64,000 nucleotides of DNA from assembly GCA_019359095.1 (NCBI GenBank), contig JAHHHZ010000025.1, positions 186,001-250,000 on the forward strand, in the 5' to 3' direction. This stretch comes from Pleurocapsa minor HA4230-MV1. GTDB lineage: Bacteria; Cyanobacteriota; Cyanobacteriia; Cyanobacteriales; Xenococcaceae. How positions within the stretch are numbered: position 1 is the first letter of the stretch; every line of letters starts with the position of its first letter. Of this stretch, positions 11,175-26,627 are shown piece after piece. Made by a program: the position numbers and the translations under genes. The notes beneath the pieces are model-generated. The model was not told the origin of the DNA. It did not search any database and saw only the letters and a program-made list of their open reading frames with translations.

Positions 11175-11175
11175 A

Positions 11176-11868
11176 ATGTTAATCCTTAGCAGCACAACAG
11201 ATACGGCGATCGATCGCCTTTGGAGTTTAGTCTCTGGAGTTTTATTATTAAATAGCGAAACTTTTAAATCGATTAACAACTTACCTTTGGGTTTAATTGC
11301 CAGTATTTTAGTTGTTTTGTTAGCTGGCTTATCGCAAACTTTTGGTCAAAGTGTAATGCTGTTTATCAATCGAGTGCGTCCTTTACGGTTTTTGCTCTCA
11401 GTGGCGATCGCTGCTGTCTTATTCGTCTTTAACTACAATTTTTGGGTTTTTAGTACTTGGCTAGTAGCGGGGTGGTTATTTGGCGTCGATCTGCCGTTGA
11501 TAGAAGTGATCAAAACATTAGGCTTTAGCTATGCACCTTTGTTACTCGGTTTTTTGATCGTAATTCCTTATTTTGGGATGCCAATTTTAGTCGTGCTGTC
11601 AATTTGGACTTTATTGGCGATCGCTAATGGTTTAGGCGCAATTTCTAATTTAAGTATCTGGCAAGCTTTTGAATGTTGTTTAGGTGGATGGTTGGCGCTG
11701 CAATTATCTCAGCGGGTTTTGGGAAAAGCGATCGCACGGATTACCAGCAGGATAGTTGACTGGGTGGCGGGGGTAGAATTAGTTACTGAACCCGACTATC
11801 TCGAACAGATGCTTTATAGTGGCTTGCCGATCCCTCCTCAGAGAACAGATATTCCTGACTTGTTGTAA
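11176..11868 (+). CDS. Yip1-like polytopic membrane protein
   Basis: 230 residues with about five hydrophobic helices (LIASILVVLLAGL, FLLSVAIAAVLFVFNYNFW, a PLLLGFLIVIPYFGMPILVVL pair and an ALQLSQRVL helix). The arrangement with a proline/tyrosine-rich loop FSYAPLLLGF is typical of Yip1-family membrane proteins common in bacteria with unknown function. The C-terminus (DYLEQMLYSGLPIPPQRTD) is cytosolic or soluble. Starts at ATG 11176, 31 bp after the previous gene, so co-transcription is likely. No catalytic residues seen; role unknown. Confidence 0.75.
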   Translation: MLILSSTTDTAIDRLWSLVSGVLLLNSETFKSINNLPLGLIASILVVLLAGLSQTFGQSVMLFINRVRPLRFLLSVAIAAVLFVFNYNFWVFSTWLVAGWLFGVDLPLIEVIKTLGFSYAPLLLGFLIVIPYFGMPILVVLSIWTLLAIANGLGAISNLSIWQAFECCLGGWLALQLSQRVLGKAIARITSRIVDWVAGVELVTEPDYLEQMLYSGLPIPPQRTDIPDLL

Positions 11869-21955: not shown

Positions 21956-22846
21956 ATGTTTCCCAGCTACATACCAGCCGAAGCTAGCAATTTAACTGAA
22001 GCTCAATCGATCGCTTTAACAAAACAAATTAAACAAGTAGCTATTCCTACACCATTAAGCAAGGAAGATGTGGCAACTACCTATGTTCATCAAGGAACTG
22101 GGGGTACACCTATTTTGCTCATTCATGGCTTTGATAGCTCTTTACTAGAGTTTCGTCGTCTCTTGCCTATTCTCGCAGCGCAACAGTCAACCTATGCAGT
22201 AGATCTGCTGGGATTCGGTTTTACTCAGCGGAATTTAGAGATTTCACTGAACTCAGAAAATATTAAAACTCATTTATATTGTTTTTGGCAAACTGTAATT
22301 CAGCAGCCTGTAATTATAGTAGGTGCTTCGATGGGTGGTGCAGCAGCGATTGATTTTACGCTCAATTATCCCGACGCAGTAGAGAAGCTGGTTTTGCTAG
22401 ATAGTGCAGGTTTAGCCAAGCAACCCGCCATTGGTAAGTTCATGTTTTCTCCTATCGATACATTTGCCACGGAGTTTCTGCGTAATCCCAAGATTCGTCA
22501 AAGCATTAGTCGCTCTGCTTATTTCGATCGAAGTTTGGCTAGTTTAGATGCTCAAGTCTGTGCTGCACTGCATTTAAAGTGTTTCAATTGGCACAAGTCT
22601 CTAATTGCCTTTACTAAAAGTGGTGGTTATGGATCTCTAATTGACAAAATTTCCACCATCCAACAGCCTACCCTAATTATCTGGGGCAGACAGGACAAAA
22701 TCTTAGGCATTAAAGATGCTGTTAAATTTCAGCAAGCTATTCCTCATAGTAAGCTCGTTTGGATCGATCGCTGTGGTCATGTTCCTCATTTAGAACAGCC
22801 AGATATTACTGCTACAGAAATATTGACTTTAGCTCTTAGCTCTTAG
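21956..22846 (+). CDS. Alpha/beta hydrolase
   Basis: 296 residues of the classic fold: oxyanion-region LLIHGFDSS (about 54-62), DLLGFGFTQR, nucleophile elbow GASMGG with S125, acid near LIIWGRQDKILG and His in DRCGHVPHLEQPD. It resembles cofactor-free lipolytic or C-C hydrolases encoded in many cyanobacteria; substrate unknown. The last residues (LALSS) and the TAG stop at 22844-22846 are encoded by the AGCTCTT heptamer repeat that follows, so the C-terminus was reset by repeat expansion. It follows the DUF928 gene by 96 bp. Confidence 0.88.
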   Translation: MFPSYIPAEASNLTEAQSIALTKQIKQVAIPTPLSKEDVATTYVHQGTGGTPILLIHGFDSSLLEFRRLLPILAAQQSTYAVDLLGFGFTQRNLEISLNSENIKTHLYCFWQTVIQQPVIIVGASMGGAAAIDFTLNYPDAVEKLVLLDSAGLAKQPAIGKFMFSPIDTFATEFLRNPKIRQSISRSAYFDRSLASLDAQVCAALHLKCFNWHKSLIAFTKSGGYGSLIDKISTIQQPTLIIWGRQDKILGIKDAVKFQQAIPHSKLVWIDRCGHVPHLEQPDITATEILTLALSS

Positions 22847-22870
22847 CTCTTAGCTCTTAGCTCTTAGCTT
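22831..22870. repeat. AGCTCTT heptamer tandem repeat overlapping a gene end
   Basis: Five to six copies of AGCTCTT. The first two copies are coding and include the stop codon of the alpha/beta hydrolase gene. Because seven is not a multiple of three, TAG appears in every plus-strand frame within 21 bases. The same heptamer is found at 26628-26678. Confidence 0.92.
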
Positions 22871-23130
22871 TATGTTAAATATTGCTCCAGCAAATTTAAT
22901 TCATTTTAATCAACAATAAATAAAGTTTTGATAAACTCCATGGTTAACTTTTTACTCTCCTAAAATTTATAAACATAATCAATCCTAATAAAATCAATAC
23001 TTTACTCAAATCTTGAGCATATTTCAAATAATTTAGCAATTATTGTCACGATCAAAGACAATGATAATATAAGTATATTCTCGTAAGAAAGAATACTGAG
23101 AAATAATTATTTGTTATCTATTGAATTAAT

Positions 23131-23901
23131 ATGCTTGCTGCAATACAAGGAAAAATAAGCAAAATTTTATCTAGTATTTCTCCTTTTATCGCTCTGGTAG
23201 GAATTGTAATTTTACAAAGTCAAGAATATAAAAAATCAGTAGCAAAACTCAACAATACTGATTATCTAGCACAAGAACAAGAGCAAGCAAAACTAGTCGA
23301 TTGGCAGAAACAAACATCTCACCTTGGCTTTGATAATCTTAAGGCTGATTGGATCTATTTAGACTTTGTTCAATATTTTGGTGATGCAAATGCCAGAGAA
23401 ACTATTGGTTACAAATTAGTTCCTAAATACTTTGAAACTATTACTAAGATTGACCCTCGCTTTACTACAGCTTACCTCAATCTGGCGATCGCCAACTCGA
23501 TGTATGCAGGGTATCCAGACAAGACGATCGCTTTGATGGAAGATTTATTAAAATCTGTAGATCCAGAATCTCCTGATGCTGCATTTCTCTGGACTTCCAA
23601 AGGATTAGATGAATTATTATTTATGGGAGATAAAAAAGCGGCGATCGAGTCTTATAAAATGGCAGCCAAATGGCAGTCTTTAACTAATACAAAGCGACCA
23701 GATGGTTTAACTATTCAAGATTTGGAATTGGCTTTAAAAGATACCGATGAAATAGATCTTAAACAAGCACAAATTAGAGCTTGGTCTAGCGTCTTAGTTT
23801 ATGTTAGAGATCTGCCCAGACAGCGAGAAATTATGGATAAAATCTCTAGTTTAAAAGCAGAACTTTCAGTTTTAGAACAGGCAAATACTACTCAGCCTTA
23901 G
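23131..23901 (+). CDS. Uncharacterised TPR-like protein with N-terminal membrane anchor
   Basis: 256 residues. A hydrophobic segment (ISPFIALVGIVILQ, about 17-31) anchors the protein. The rest is helical with TPR-like pairs: YFETITKIDPRFTTAYLNLAIANS, PDKTIALMEDLLKSVDPES and KKAAIESYKMAAKWQ. It is probably a membrane-associated scaffold. Its last ten codons (LEQANTTQP and stop) are present again at 24874-24902 beyond the Rpn nuclease gene, indicating that the nuclease entered at the 3' end of this gene. Function not recognised. Confidence 0.75.
   Translation: MLAAIQGKISKILSSISPFIALVGIVILQSQEYKKSVAKLNNTDYLAQEQEQAKLVDWQKQTSHLGFDNLKADWIYLDFVQYFGDANARETIGYKLVPKYFETITKIDPRFTTAYLNLAIANSMYAGYPDKTIALMEDLLKSVDPESPDAAFLWTSKGLDELLFMGDKKAAIESYKMAAKWQSLTNTKRPDGLTIQDLELALKDTDEIDLKQAQIRAWSSVLVYVRDLPRQREIMDKISSLKAELSVLEQANTTQP
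23870..23897. repeat. 28-bp direct repeat, left copy
   Basis: A 28-bp sequence ending AATACTACTCAGCC inside the end of the TPR-like gene. It is repeated exactly at 24872-24899, on the far side of the Rpn nuclease gene. Homology stops at both borders: the bases after the left copy are TTAG, after the right copy ATAA. Confidence 0.95.
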
Positions 23902-23941
23902 AAAAGGTAGTAACAGAAAGCTTATCCGATACACTGTATTA

Positions 23942-24844
23942 ATGGCTAATATCAACCACGACCAATTATTTAAAGAGCTTTTAACTACTTTTTTCGTTGA
24001 ATTTCTGGAGCTTTTGTTTCCCTCAGTTCTTGAATATCTGGACACTGATTCAATTCAGTTTGTAGATAAGGAAATTTTTACTGATGTAGTTGGCGGTGAA
24101 AAGAAGATCGTGGATATCGTTGCTCTGGCTAAGTTTCAAGAACAGGATTACTCGTTTTTGATTCATGTTGAAAATCAAGCTTCTAACGCTCCCAAATTTA
24201 ATCGCCGAATGTTTAGATATTTTTGTAGCCTCTTCCTTAAATACGATCGCCCCATTTATCCGATTGTTGTTTTTTCTTATGATTCTCCGCAAAGGCTAGA
24301 CAAAAGTAACTTTGTGATTGACTTTCCAGATAAACAGATTTTAAAGTTTGACTATGAAATAGTGCAGCTTAATCGTCTGGATTGGCGTAATTTTTTACAG
24401 CAGAAGAATCCTGTTGCTGCTGCGCTGATGGCGAAGATGAAAATTGATAAACAAGATCGCCCGACGGTCAAAGCTCAATGTCTTCGCCTTCTGGTTACTC
24501 TCAAACTTGACCCTGCCAAGATGCAGTTGATTTCAGGCTTTGTCGATACCTATCTCCGTCTTAACTCTAATGAGGAGGCGTTATTTCAATCTGAGTTAGG
24601 TACAATGGAAACAAGGGAACAGGAACAGATTATGCAGATTACTACATCTTGGAAAGAAGAAGGACGAATTGAAGAAAAGCTTGCTATTACTCTGCGTTTA
24701 CTCAATCGTAAACTAGGGAATCTCCCAGAGGCGATCGCCGATCGCATCAAGTCTTTAGAACCAATCCAGTTAGATTCTTTGACAGAGGATTTACTCGATT
24801 TTCAATCTCTTGACGATCTTCAGAATTGGCTCAGTAAGTCCTAG
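23942..24844 (+). CDS. Rpn-family PD-(D/E)XK nuclease with C-terminal DUF4351
   Basis: 300 residues. The N-terminal half is the Rpn/transposase_31-type nuclease: DQLFKELLTTFFVEFLELLFP, then KKIVDIVALAKF (Asp) and FLIHVENQAS (E-x-Q, the family's variant of E-x-K), followed by RMFRYFCSLFLKY. The C-terminus is DUF4351 (EEKLAITLRLLNRKLG, SLEPIQLDSLTEDLLDFQSLDDL). Such proteins are multicopy, mobile-looking nucleases proposed to promote recombination. The gene sits exactly between two copies of a 28-bp direct repeat, so it appears as a 1-kb insertion. Active-site residues look complete. Confidence 0.9.
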   Translation: MANINHDQLFKELLTTFFVEFLELLFPSVLEYLDTDSIQFVDKEIFTDVVGGEKKIVDIVALAKFQEQDYSFLIHVENQASNAPKFNRRMFRYFCSLFLKYDRPIYPIVVFSYDSPQRLDKSNFVIDFPDKQILKFDYEIVQLNRLDWRNFLQQKNPVAAALMAKMKIDKQDRPTVKAQCLRLLVTLKLDPAKMQLISGFVDTYLRLNSNEEALFQSELGTMETREQEQIMQITTSWKEEGRIEEKLAITLRLLNRKLGNLPEAIADRIKSLEPIQLDSLTEDLLDFQSLDDLQNWLSKS

Positions 24845-24871
24845 AGTAAGTTGTTCAGCATTTTGTGACGA

Positions 24872-24899
24872 TTTTAGAACAGGCAAATACTACTCAGCC
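24872..24899. repeat. 28-bp direct repeat, right copy
   Basis: Exact match to 23870-23897. In the right copy the frame LEQANTTQP followed by TAA could be the displaced original end of the TPR-like gene. On the minus strand its last bases form the final Gly codon and TGA stop of the GNAT gene. Confidence 0.95.
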
Positions 24900-25361
24900 A
24901 TAAATATTCTTGTCCATTAAATAATTGATAAAAATTTGTCCTCGGCAAGACACTTCTTGAGGATTAATGATTTCAAATCCGCGACTAATAAAAAAAGGTT
25001 TGGCAGTAATACTAGCTTCAGTAAATAAGCGAGTCAAACCTAATTGCATAGCTTTAATTTCTATAGCTTGATAGATCTTGCTACCAATTCCTTGACGCTG
25101 ATGTCGATCGTGAATATAAAAACAATCAATATGACCGTTTGATTCTAATTCACCAAAGCCGAGAATTTTGTCGTTTTCTAAGGCAACATAAGTAAAATTA
25201 CTCGAACATATTGCCAGCCAATCTCTAAAATAAATATCATCAGGCGACCAAGCGATAATCTGTTCCGCCGAATAATCCTGAATATTGACTTTTCTCACTG
25301 TATTGTGAAATAGCTGGGCAATTTGTGGTGTATCTTCAGGTTGAAATAATCTAATCTGCAT
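24894..25361 (-). CDS. GNAT-family N-acetyltransferase
   Basis: An upstream in-frame ATG at 25418 would overlap the Crp gene; the ATG at 25361 (MQIRLFQPED) matches the usual GNAT beginning and is preferred (155 residues). Motif A is HDRHQRQGIGSKIYQAIE with the Q/R-x-x-G-x-G acetyl-CoA loop; FISRGFEI is motif B. Similar to PhnO/YafP-type acetyltransferases; substrate unknown. It is the last gene of a minus-strand trio: response regulator, Crp-type regulator, GNAT, with gaps of 13-14 bp. Its stop codon lies within the right 28-bp repeat. Confidence 0.85.
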   Translation of the reverse strand: MQIRLFQPEDTPQIAQLFHNTVRKVNIQDYSAEQIIAWSPDDIYFRDWLAICSSNFTYVALENDKILGFGELESNGHIDCFYIHDRHQRQGIGSKIYQAIEIKAMQLGLTRLFTEASITAKPFFISRGFEIINPQEVSCRGQIFINYLMDKNIYG

Positions 25362-25374
25362 TATAAATCTGCGA

Positions 25375-26109
25375 TTATTGGCGATAAAAATTATTGTGGA
25401 AAATCTGATAACATTCACAGGAAGTCTCCTCTAAAGCTGGCCGATTTAGAATATGAATTTTGCCTCGGGCATAACTAATTAATCCCGCTCCTTGAAGTGT
25501 ACTGGCGGCGATGGTTACTCCTGAACGACGGCATCCCAGCATCTGACCAATAAATTCCTGAGTCAGAGGCAGCTCTTCAAATTGGGTTAAATCCTGAACT
25601 GTCAGCAGCCAACGAGCTAAACGCTCTTCAATTGTATGATGACGGTTGCAAACTGCTAGTTGAGCAACTTCGTTTAGTCTGGTTTGAGCGTATTCCAATA
25701 ATATTTTTTGCAACTTTCCTCCTCGGTCAAACTCCTGTTTTAAAACCAAAGCCGAAATTTTAAGAGCGCTGCCAACTAATTGAACAATTGCCCGTTGACT
25801 ACTGTAGCCATTTCCCAAAATAACTGGAAGACCAACCATTCCCGTACCGCCAACGATCCCAATTTCCGTAGTTGTACCAGTACTTAAAGTGTTAACCAAA
25901 GAGATTAACGCAGATTTGGGAAAGTAAACGGTTTCGATCTTTTCTGAAGCTTCGTAAAAAACAGTTCCCACAGGAAGAGATATAGAAATTAAGTGAGGCT
26001 CTAGGCGACTATATTCCTCTTCTGGCAAAGCTTTTAAAAGACGATTTGCCGAGCGGGATTGATCATAAGTCAACGGAAAACCTCCATAATTTTCATAATT
26101 TTTCATCAC
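25375..26109 (-). CDS. Crp/Fnr-family transcription regulator
   Basis: 244 residues. The cyclic-nucleotide-binding-like jelly roll is at about 28-145 (LPVGTVFYEASEKIETVYFPKSALISLV), but the GE(R/L)xL...R-T/S cAMP pocket is not obvious, so the ligand is unknown. The long dimer helix is followed by an HTH: LPLTQEFIGQMLGCRRSGVTIAASTLQGAGLISYARGKI read in order. The EERLARWLL motif is typical of the cyanobacterial branch found beside stress regulators. An alternative ATG lies one codon downstream (26106). Neighbouring genes are a receiver protein upstream and GNAT downstream, probably one operon. Confidence 0.9.
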   Translation of the reverse strand: MMKNYENYGGFPLTYDQSRSANRLLKALPEEEYSRLEPHLISISLPVGTVFYEASEKIETVYFPKSALISLVNTLSTGTTTEIGIVGGTGMVGLPVILGNGYSSQRAIVQLVGSALKISALVLKQEFDRGGKLQKILLEYAQTRLNEVAQLAVCNRHHTIEERLARWLLTVQDLTQFEELPLTQEFIGQMLGCRRSGVTIAASTLQGAGLISYARGKIHILNRPALEETSCECYQIFHNNFYRQ

Positions 26110-26123
26110 CTTAAACGTAATGA

Positions 26124-26507
26124 TTAACTAGACTCCCATTCACAAATTTTTGCTATTTGCGAATCTAGATTAACAACATCAAAAGGCTTAGTAATTACTC
26201 CTTCAGCTAAAGTTTTTTCTAACTCACAAAGCATCTTTTCTTGAGTAAAAGCTGTCATGAAAATGATGGGGATTGTACAGGTGAATAAATTAGACTTTAA
26301 GACTTCATAAACAGTCAGTCCATCTAAGCCAGGCATGAGCAAATCTAAAAGAATTACATCTGGTCTTTCAAGTTCTGCTTTAGTAATACCTTCTATTCCA
26401 TCGATCGCAGTTGAAATTGACCAGTCTTGATTCATCTCCAGAGCAAGCTTAACTAGTATTCTGTTATCTTCGTTGTCGTCAATAATTAACAACTGTTTGC
26501 TAGTCAT
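26124..26507 (-). CDS. Single-domain response regulator (receiver)
   Basis: The frame extends upstream to 26579, but the ATG at 26507 (MTSKQLLIIDDNEDNR) gives the standard receiver start and is preferred (127 residues). Conserved residues: acidic pair in IIDDNED, phosphoacceptor Asp in VILLDLLMPGLDG, Thr in FMTAF and Lys in VITKPFD. There is no output domain, so it acts by protein contact, perhaps with the Crp-type regulator encoded 14 bp downstream (inference). Confidence 0.9.
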   Translation of the reverse strand: MTSKQLLIIDDNEDNRILVKLALEMNQDWSISTAIDGIEGITKAELERPDVILLDLLMPGLDGLTVYEVLKSNLFTCTIPIIFMTAFTQEKMLCELEKTLAEGVITKPFDVVNLDSQIAKICEWESS

Positions 26508-26627
26508 TTCAATACAAGCTTTTAGTAATATTTCAATTGTGATTAAGTTTTTTGACCGTCTCTGTACGGTTATCGACATAAGTGAAATTACTTAAATTTT
26601 ATCGCATTTTTAAAGGGATTGATGATG

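Follow-up and report, generated by a model that had tools for sequence, protein, structure and literature searches.

The locus studied here raises the question of how a segment of about 1 kb, holding a single Rpn-like gene, came to lie between two convergent genes and within an exact direct repeat. The window, i.e., the whole stretch of 64,000 nucleotides that was analysed, is part of a 5.64-Mb cyanobacterial draft genome (G000, 36 contigs). In it, an ORF of 256 aa (23131..23901, forward strand) is followed by the Rpn-DUF4351 gene (23942..24844, forward strand, 300 aa) and by a convergent GNAT acetyltransferase gene (24894..25361, reverse strand), an ORF with matches to Pfam GNAT families whose ATG is at 25361, the ORF as listed opening at a GTG at 25418. 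The first of these genes is called here TPR-like, the name given in an earlier, sequence-only reading of this DNA; its protein matched no Pfam family at 0.001. The repeat, TTTTAGAACAGGCAAATACTACTCAGCC, is exact over 28 bp, with a left copy at 23870..23897 and a right copy at 24872..24899 (both forward strand, 1002 bp from start to start), and the match extends to 33 bp (23870-23902 on the left) with two mismatches, then including the stop codon. The left copy forms the final codons of the TPR-like frame, and the right copy lies between the Rpn tail and the GNAT gene, whose stop codon (TGA, minus strand, 24894-24896) is inside it. The sequence-only reading had proposed that both copies encode LEQANTTQP plus a stop, that the roughly 1-kb segment between them holds only the Rpn-DUF4351 gene, and that the GNAT stop falls within the right copy, and all of this was found: the peptide is in frame in both copies (CCT-TAG on the left, CCA-TAA on the right), and the 974 bp between them contain one complete gene. 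With up to three mismatches allowed, a scan of all 5.64 Mb gave these two copies of TTTTAGAACAGGCAAATACTACTCAGCC and no others, and a reversed control pattern gave none, which disposes of the objection that the repeat is a common dispersed element. By a simple calculation, the probability of an exact 28-bp repeat arising within 4 kb by chance is negligible.

The same pair of genes was then sought in relatives, as that reading had suggested, and the site was found to be empty in two genomes of the same genus, G021 (L008) and G018 (L012), in which the TPR-like and GNAT genes are convergent and adjacent, with no Rpn between them, and in G018 with overlapping 3' ends. Relatives of the TPR-like gene are present in 26 of the 27 genomes of the family and GNAT matches in 8 of the 13 genomes of the genus (the own genome counted in both cases), and Rpn matches were detected in 15 of the 27 family genomes; of four TPR-like relatives in a public collection, two are from Pleurocapsa, one from Waterburya and one from a Hyellaceae MAG. 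Relatives carrying an Rpn gene at this place without repeats, which would have spoken against an insertion, were not encountered, as no Rpn match (E 1e-5) was detected at the 29 TPR-gene loci of other family genomes (two of these loci overlap, three are second copies and some are on contigs that end early). The blocks of G018 and G021 follow the window from the TPR-like gene rightwards to about 36.2 kb, with a gap without match at 25.4-26.6 kb, and the right repeat copy aligns across both junctions. To the left of the TPR-like gene, no match of at least 40 residues to window 12-23 kb was detected in these blocks. As judged by alignment, the gene pair and the right side are common to the window and to G018 and G021, and the left side is not. 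Identity to these two genomes is 67-68% for the TPR-like gene and 70-74% for GNAT, and at this distance the ancestral letters of the site are not directly readable from them. The nearest genomes by TPR identity, G016 (79%) and G017 (76-81%), have no GNAT match at E 1e-20, and so they cannot show the site.

The segment missing from the G018 and G021 junctions corresponds to 23898..24871 (forward strand, 974 bp, or 969 bp if the duplication is taken as 33 bp), and the direct repeat bounds it on both sides. The left copy is the native TPR end, aligning with the native TPR 3' ends of G016, G017, G018 and G021, and its tail, CCTTAGA, is the gene end found in G017, so that the original letters may be those on the left, with two substitutions possibly acquired on the right. 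The sequence-only reading had suggested that the right copy is the original junction; the collinearity with G018 and G021 and the GNAT stop inside it agree with this, and it does read as the original GNAT junction, with the nuance that two of its letters may have changed since. The right boundary of the insert is placed by the Rpn paralogue on C20 (L040), whose homology covers 23919-24872, stopping at the first base of the right copy, and with which the right tail of the cassette (24845..24871, forward strand) is common. On the upstream side, blastn homology starts at 23919 for L040, at 23924 for L257 (from G017) and at 23929 for L039, and later for L038 (23939) and L041 (23942); the stretch concerned, the element ATACACTGTAT (23919..23941, forward strand), is partly common to some Rpn copies of the own genome and to G017. 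Of the sequence upstream of the start codon, the window has only 0-23 bp in common with those own-genome and genus Rpn copies whose alignment spans that codon, so the inserted unit would barely exceed the ORF. None of the compared Rpn copies matches 23898-23918, at the left end of the insert, and the left edge is uncertain by about 5 bp.

Apart from an antisense ORF nested in it, the Rpn ORF is the only one of at least 80 aa in the insert. Neither a transposase nor an integrase was detected there, nor a terminal inverted repeat, and none of the 10 inverted pairs (at least 14 nt, 22500-26500) links its two ends. The genome holds four Rpn copies, one of them split in two pieces, and at the three outside the window no flanking repeat scored above 14. 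The C20 copy, near 164 kb, includes a 50-bp and a smaller extra stretch that resemble dispersed repeats; compared with the window copy, it is uneven, near-identical stretches being mixed with divergent ones.

We consider it probable, with good support at this locus, that an ORF-sized Rpn cassette of about 970 bp was inserted at the convergent gene ends with a target duplication of 28-33 bp. A self-contained Rpn-DUF4351 gene would have entered as a fragment where the TPR-like and GNAT genes converge, duplicating 28-33 bp of the target, and this duplication would restore the TPR C-terminus and its stop on the left and leave the GNAT end whole on the right. Among the surveyed cases described below, the window alone combines an empty site, a defined right boundary and a collinear right junction.

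In the Rpn-DUF4351 protein, the model TIGR01784 (Rpn family) matched residues 6-95 only, with 24.2 bits (E 2.5e-5) and a cut-off of 52.1, so the protein is Rpn-like and not a formal member of the family by that model; DUF4351 was recognised at residues 239-297 with 64.5 bits (cut-off 25). Among 178 sequences, D58 is conserved in 175, E77 in 176 and Q79 in 151. For a confident structure model (mean pLDDT 91.1), no match below E 0.001 was obtained in the PDB; the top row is an unrelated integrative model, and the weaker rows include NucS/EndoMS, Cap4 and BstEII, which we take to be PD-(D/E)XK nucleases. An internal ATG, preceded by AGGA at 24621-24624, 7 nt upstream, would start a putative intragenic antitoxin RpnS (24632..24844, forward strand, M231-S300) that contains DUF4351. 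Met231 is present in 175 of the 178 Rpn proteins and an SD-like motif precedes it in 170 of these 175, the same motif being found at four other Met positions in 4/166, 0/175, 0/174 and 0/135 cases. Ahead of Met231, codon usage moves towards CAG for Gln (76 of 86) and GAG for Glu (134 of 171), in contrast to the other positions that were counted. These patterns fit an internal start giving a putative C-terminal antitoxin that would be near-universal in these proteins. For E. coli Rpn proteins, an internal start and an antitoxin are described as shown in parts of PMC10327210, where DUF4351 is also named for RpnS-type proteins. The ORF alone thus looks like a putative complete toxin-antitoxin unit, in which case an insert of its size may suffice.

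The sequence-only reading had also called for a survey of other Rpn genes. Our Rpn searches spanned 27, 388 and 386 genomes, overlapping, and gave 217 loci, from which 183 distinct Rpn genes of 700-1350 bp with 300-bp flanks were kept, genes that were shorter, longer, cut off or identical being dropped; the sample consists of high-listed loci, is not random and over-represents multi-copy genomes. A flanking direct repeat was defined as a score of at least 18 (match +1, mismatch -2, ungapped), the approach having been set by a preliminary pass over 58 rows, some of them redundant. Such repeats flank 39 of the 183 cyanobacterial Rpn genes, and were detected in 2 of 204 other ORFs of the same loci, both adjoining Rpn genes, and in 2 of 236 controls without an Rpn match in the gene or its flanks, both simple repeats. 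After grouping by common flanks, the ratios were 21/99 Rpn sites and 2/62 control groups (Fisher p 0.001); for single-gene sites they were 11/74 versus 0/26 controls (p 0.06), or versus 2/236 Rpn-free control genes. The enrichment of flanking repeats is solid for Rpn genes and sites alike.

These repeats are common but of mixed origin, so a long target duplication cannot be assumed for each Rpn gene. Another Rpn-like ORF (at least 150 aa) lies within 2.5 kb of 17 of the 39 repeat-flanked genes, and many other cases are, by inspection, dispersed, palindromic or simple repeats. In seven cases the repeat duplicates a portion of an adjacent gene (the window, G289, G136, G038, G338, G379 and G081), and four of these copy the 3' end of the neighbour, every copy reaching a stop, with ungapped lengths of 28 (33), 35, 48 and 65 bp; of these four, the window alone could be compared with an empty site, and in G136 there is a third copy. 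A duplication of fixed length was rejected because the repeat lengths vary between loci. When copies of neighbour 3' ends were sought at the protein level, 130 Rpn genes had a testable neighbour and 12 of these scored at least 50: six belong to the above copies of part of an adjacent gene (the window, G038, G136, G379, G338 and G289) and the other six are arrays or repeats. Of 150 controls, 2 reached this score, both near Rpn genes. L191, a match in this test, resembles a palindromic repeat by inspection. In E. coli, no flanking repeat was detected at rpnA, rpnB, rpnC and rpnE (best scores 7-9). The rpnC and rpnA regions are covered to at least 80% in 4831 and 4808 of 5426 E. coli genomes, and no empty site appeared among the 40 matches listed for each search, all of which name an Rpn-type gene.

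On sequence grounds, a second locus with the anatomy found in the window is in G289 (L256/L085), a genome of another family. There, the final codons of a gene for 1191 aa that we take to be BrxC-like are duplicated in a 35-bp repeat (33/35), whose copies end in TAG (left) and TGA (right), and beyond the Rpn ORF the insert has only 19 bp. No empty site was found for it, the gene end being detected just in G289 itself among the 58 genomes searched. In this region (C2:80000-95000, L256), the Rpn gene and a PIN-type toxin-antitoxin pair lie between the BrxC-like gene and another that from its protein is presumably PglX-like, in what we assume to be a BREX-like operon.

For the five remaining cases, the names HAD, dnaE, hsdM, KefB-like, ParDE-like and VapBC-like used here are our assignments from the appearance of the proteins. 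In G038, a 65-bp repeat (62/65) copies the end of a HAD gene and each copy runs to a stop. Five relatives have the HAD gene without an adjoining Rpn insert and with a different right neighbour, and since none of them matches more than 18 bp of the dnaE side, there is no clean empty site. In G136 (L192, C77:78900-84800), the 3' end of hsdM is present three times, and another toxin-antitoxin cassette, of the ParDE-like type, is likewise bracketed by copies, as if toxin-antitoxin genes had been inserted one after another at the same gene end. The order there is hsdM, Rpn, copy, ParDE-like pair, copy, VapBC-like pair, and the last two hsdM-end copies have a further upstream stretch in common. In G338 (L219, C185:11500-17300), three copies of a KefB-like fragment are separated first by one Rpn gene and then by one Rpn remnant, the pattern expected if a cassette bounded by repeats is amplified. 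As the fragment is present three times in each, G136 and G338 were rejected as simple target duplications. The 92-bp repeat of G379 (L203), at first the most promising case, was discarded: in the sister genome G673 this Rpn is present, partly deleted, but the copy on the helicase side is missing and the upstream region is the one common to other relatives, so the repeat is later than the insertion. G081 (L224) was dropped as unclear: in G059 the site is occupied by Rpn and lacks the right copy, and in G115, where there is no Rpn match, the hydrolase gene adjoins the initial 49 bp of the apparent insert of G081.

Several of these results bear directly on the origin of the repeat in the window. 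A target duplication is supported by the end of the C20 homology exactly where the right copy begins, by the collinearity of that copy with the empty junctions and the GNAT stop in it, and by the G289 locus together with the enrichment at Rpn genes. Against it count the lack of collinearity on the left with the empty-site genomes, the unmatched 23898-23918, and the lack of repeats at the other Rpn copies of the genome and at E. coli rpnA, rpnB, rpnC and rpnE; moreover, G379, G136 and G338 indicate that Rpn genes can come to be flanked by repeats through other routes. The CCTTAGA tail also counts against it, as it would fit a left copy brought along with the insert. This would occur if a donor, as a fragment or a circle, with a TPR 3' end followed by Rpn had recombined by homology in the resident TPR end, the left copy being that of the donor and the right one the resident's. 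In favour of this, the hsdM-Rpn junction is identical in G136 and G040, of two families, so those two genes have moved as a pair. But among the TPR-gene loci examined Rpn adjoins the gene only in the own genome, and it is the Rpn tail, not further TPR sequence, that precedes the right copy, so we regard this additive integration as unlikely.

Still less probable is a tandem duplication of the TPR end plus Rpn followed by loss of the second Rpn, leaving a second TPR end. Rpn arrays are indeed common, as the 17 of 39 genes with a nearby Rpn-like ORF indicate, and the order in G338 is of this kind, but in the window the deletion would have had to restore a junction collinear with the empty sites, and no second Rpn is found in the sequence beside the right copy. 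Attachment sites are often located in gene 3' ends, which the integration restores, and a site-specific integrase acting in trans on a 28-bp site in the TPR 3' end would give a similar picture; however, the segment has no integrase ORF, the site sequence is present genome-wide only as the two copies, and the repeats at other Rpn genes vary in sequence and length, making this explanation very improbable. A Xer dif-like 28-bp site was also considered, by comparison with what we take to be the dif-like motif, and rejected, as by eye the repeat has no arm symmetry. That the repeat is a chance or dispersed element, as the palindromic or simple repeats flanking several other Rpn genes could suggest, may be practically discarded for a 28/28 bp identity with one of its two genomic copies inside a coding region.

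Returning to the insertion with target duplication, its product could have been formed in two ways. A target break with long staggered ends, from two nicks about 30 nt apart, would be filled in, and a fragment carrying the Rpn ORF would be joined into the break during the fill-in; alternatively, a template switch during replication would lead to the same product. The most likely mechanism, we infer, is that the ORF was captured at a long-staggered break, with roughly even chances between this and template switching, and it is possible that the putative Rpn nuclease itself made the break. A more general proposal, which we hold as doubtful, is that Rpn-DUF4351 ORFs are minimal mobile units, with toxin, antitoxin and mobility in one frame, moved by their own long-staggered breaks. 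The nuclease would make such breaks in the chromosome and repair would capture a fragment with its own ORF; the target duplication would spare the interrupted gene, and the cells keeping the ORF would survive through the accompanying antitoxin. If true, gene mobility would here be driven by a nuclease and need no transposase, in common with restriction-modification genes.

Insertion with long target duplication was reportedly described for the latter genes by Nobusato 2000 and Furuta 2010. The window appears to work in the same way: a nuclease gene with no accompanying IS is present at a single locus within a long direct target repeat, and repeat lengths also vary among the Rpn loci, of which the window alone has been compared with an empty site. 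It differs from those insertions in its cargo, one Rpn-like ORF with a putative internal antitoxin in place of a restriction-modification system, in its cyanobacterial host, and in that the repeats copying the 3' end of a neighbour are shorter, 28-65 bp (ungapped). In the available portions of the literature, the target duplications that accompany the insertion of restriction-modification genes are described as long and variable, their mechanism not being known (PMC3874152, PMC3031569, PMC1643837, PMC4978471), with a length of the order of 100 bp (PMC3874152). The Rpn toxin-antitoxin genes of PMC10327210, in the portions available, share with the window the Rpn-type nuclease, the internal start with a short C-terminal protein, the patchy distribution and the arrays, which there appear to arise by tandem duplication; those portions describe rpn coding regions with variable ends and without identifiable target-site duplications, whereas the window presents a duplication together with an empty site. 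For rpnC, two independent insertions at one locus were suggested, and an enzyme moving its own gene was left open, in the accessible part of PMC5350276. We recognised no report of target duplications at Rpn genes in the open-licence literature.

Two other kinds of element invite comparison. Genomic islands and cassettes at attachment sites in gene 3' ends are bounded by a direct repeat that restores the end of the target gene, as in the window, but the segment here has no integrase, is about 1 kb with one gene, and no single site sequence is reused. Classical insertion sequences are also about 1 kb, with a single gene and a direct repeat, usually far shorter than 28 bp; in the window the repeat is far longer, and neither a known transposase nor terminal inverted repeats were found. 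The interest of the locus is that two classes of nuclease-plus-protector genes, Rpn and restriction-modification, would be joined under one pattern, giving a testable model of a nuclease gene that spreads through its own breaks, and that the duplication would explain how such genes settle harmlessly at gene ends.

Some other features of the window were also observed. The stretch between GNAT and the next common gene (25375-26579), with genes that we take to be Crp-like and a response regulator, has no counterpart in the right-hand blocks of G018 and G021. At 22829-22871, a heptanucleotide repeat, (TTAGCTC)n, marks the end of an alpha/beta hydrolase gene, and at 11175-11868 an ORF lies between simple repeats of the type GGAAATAGG.
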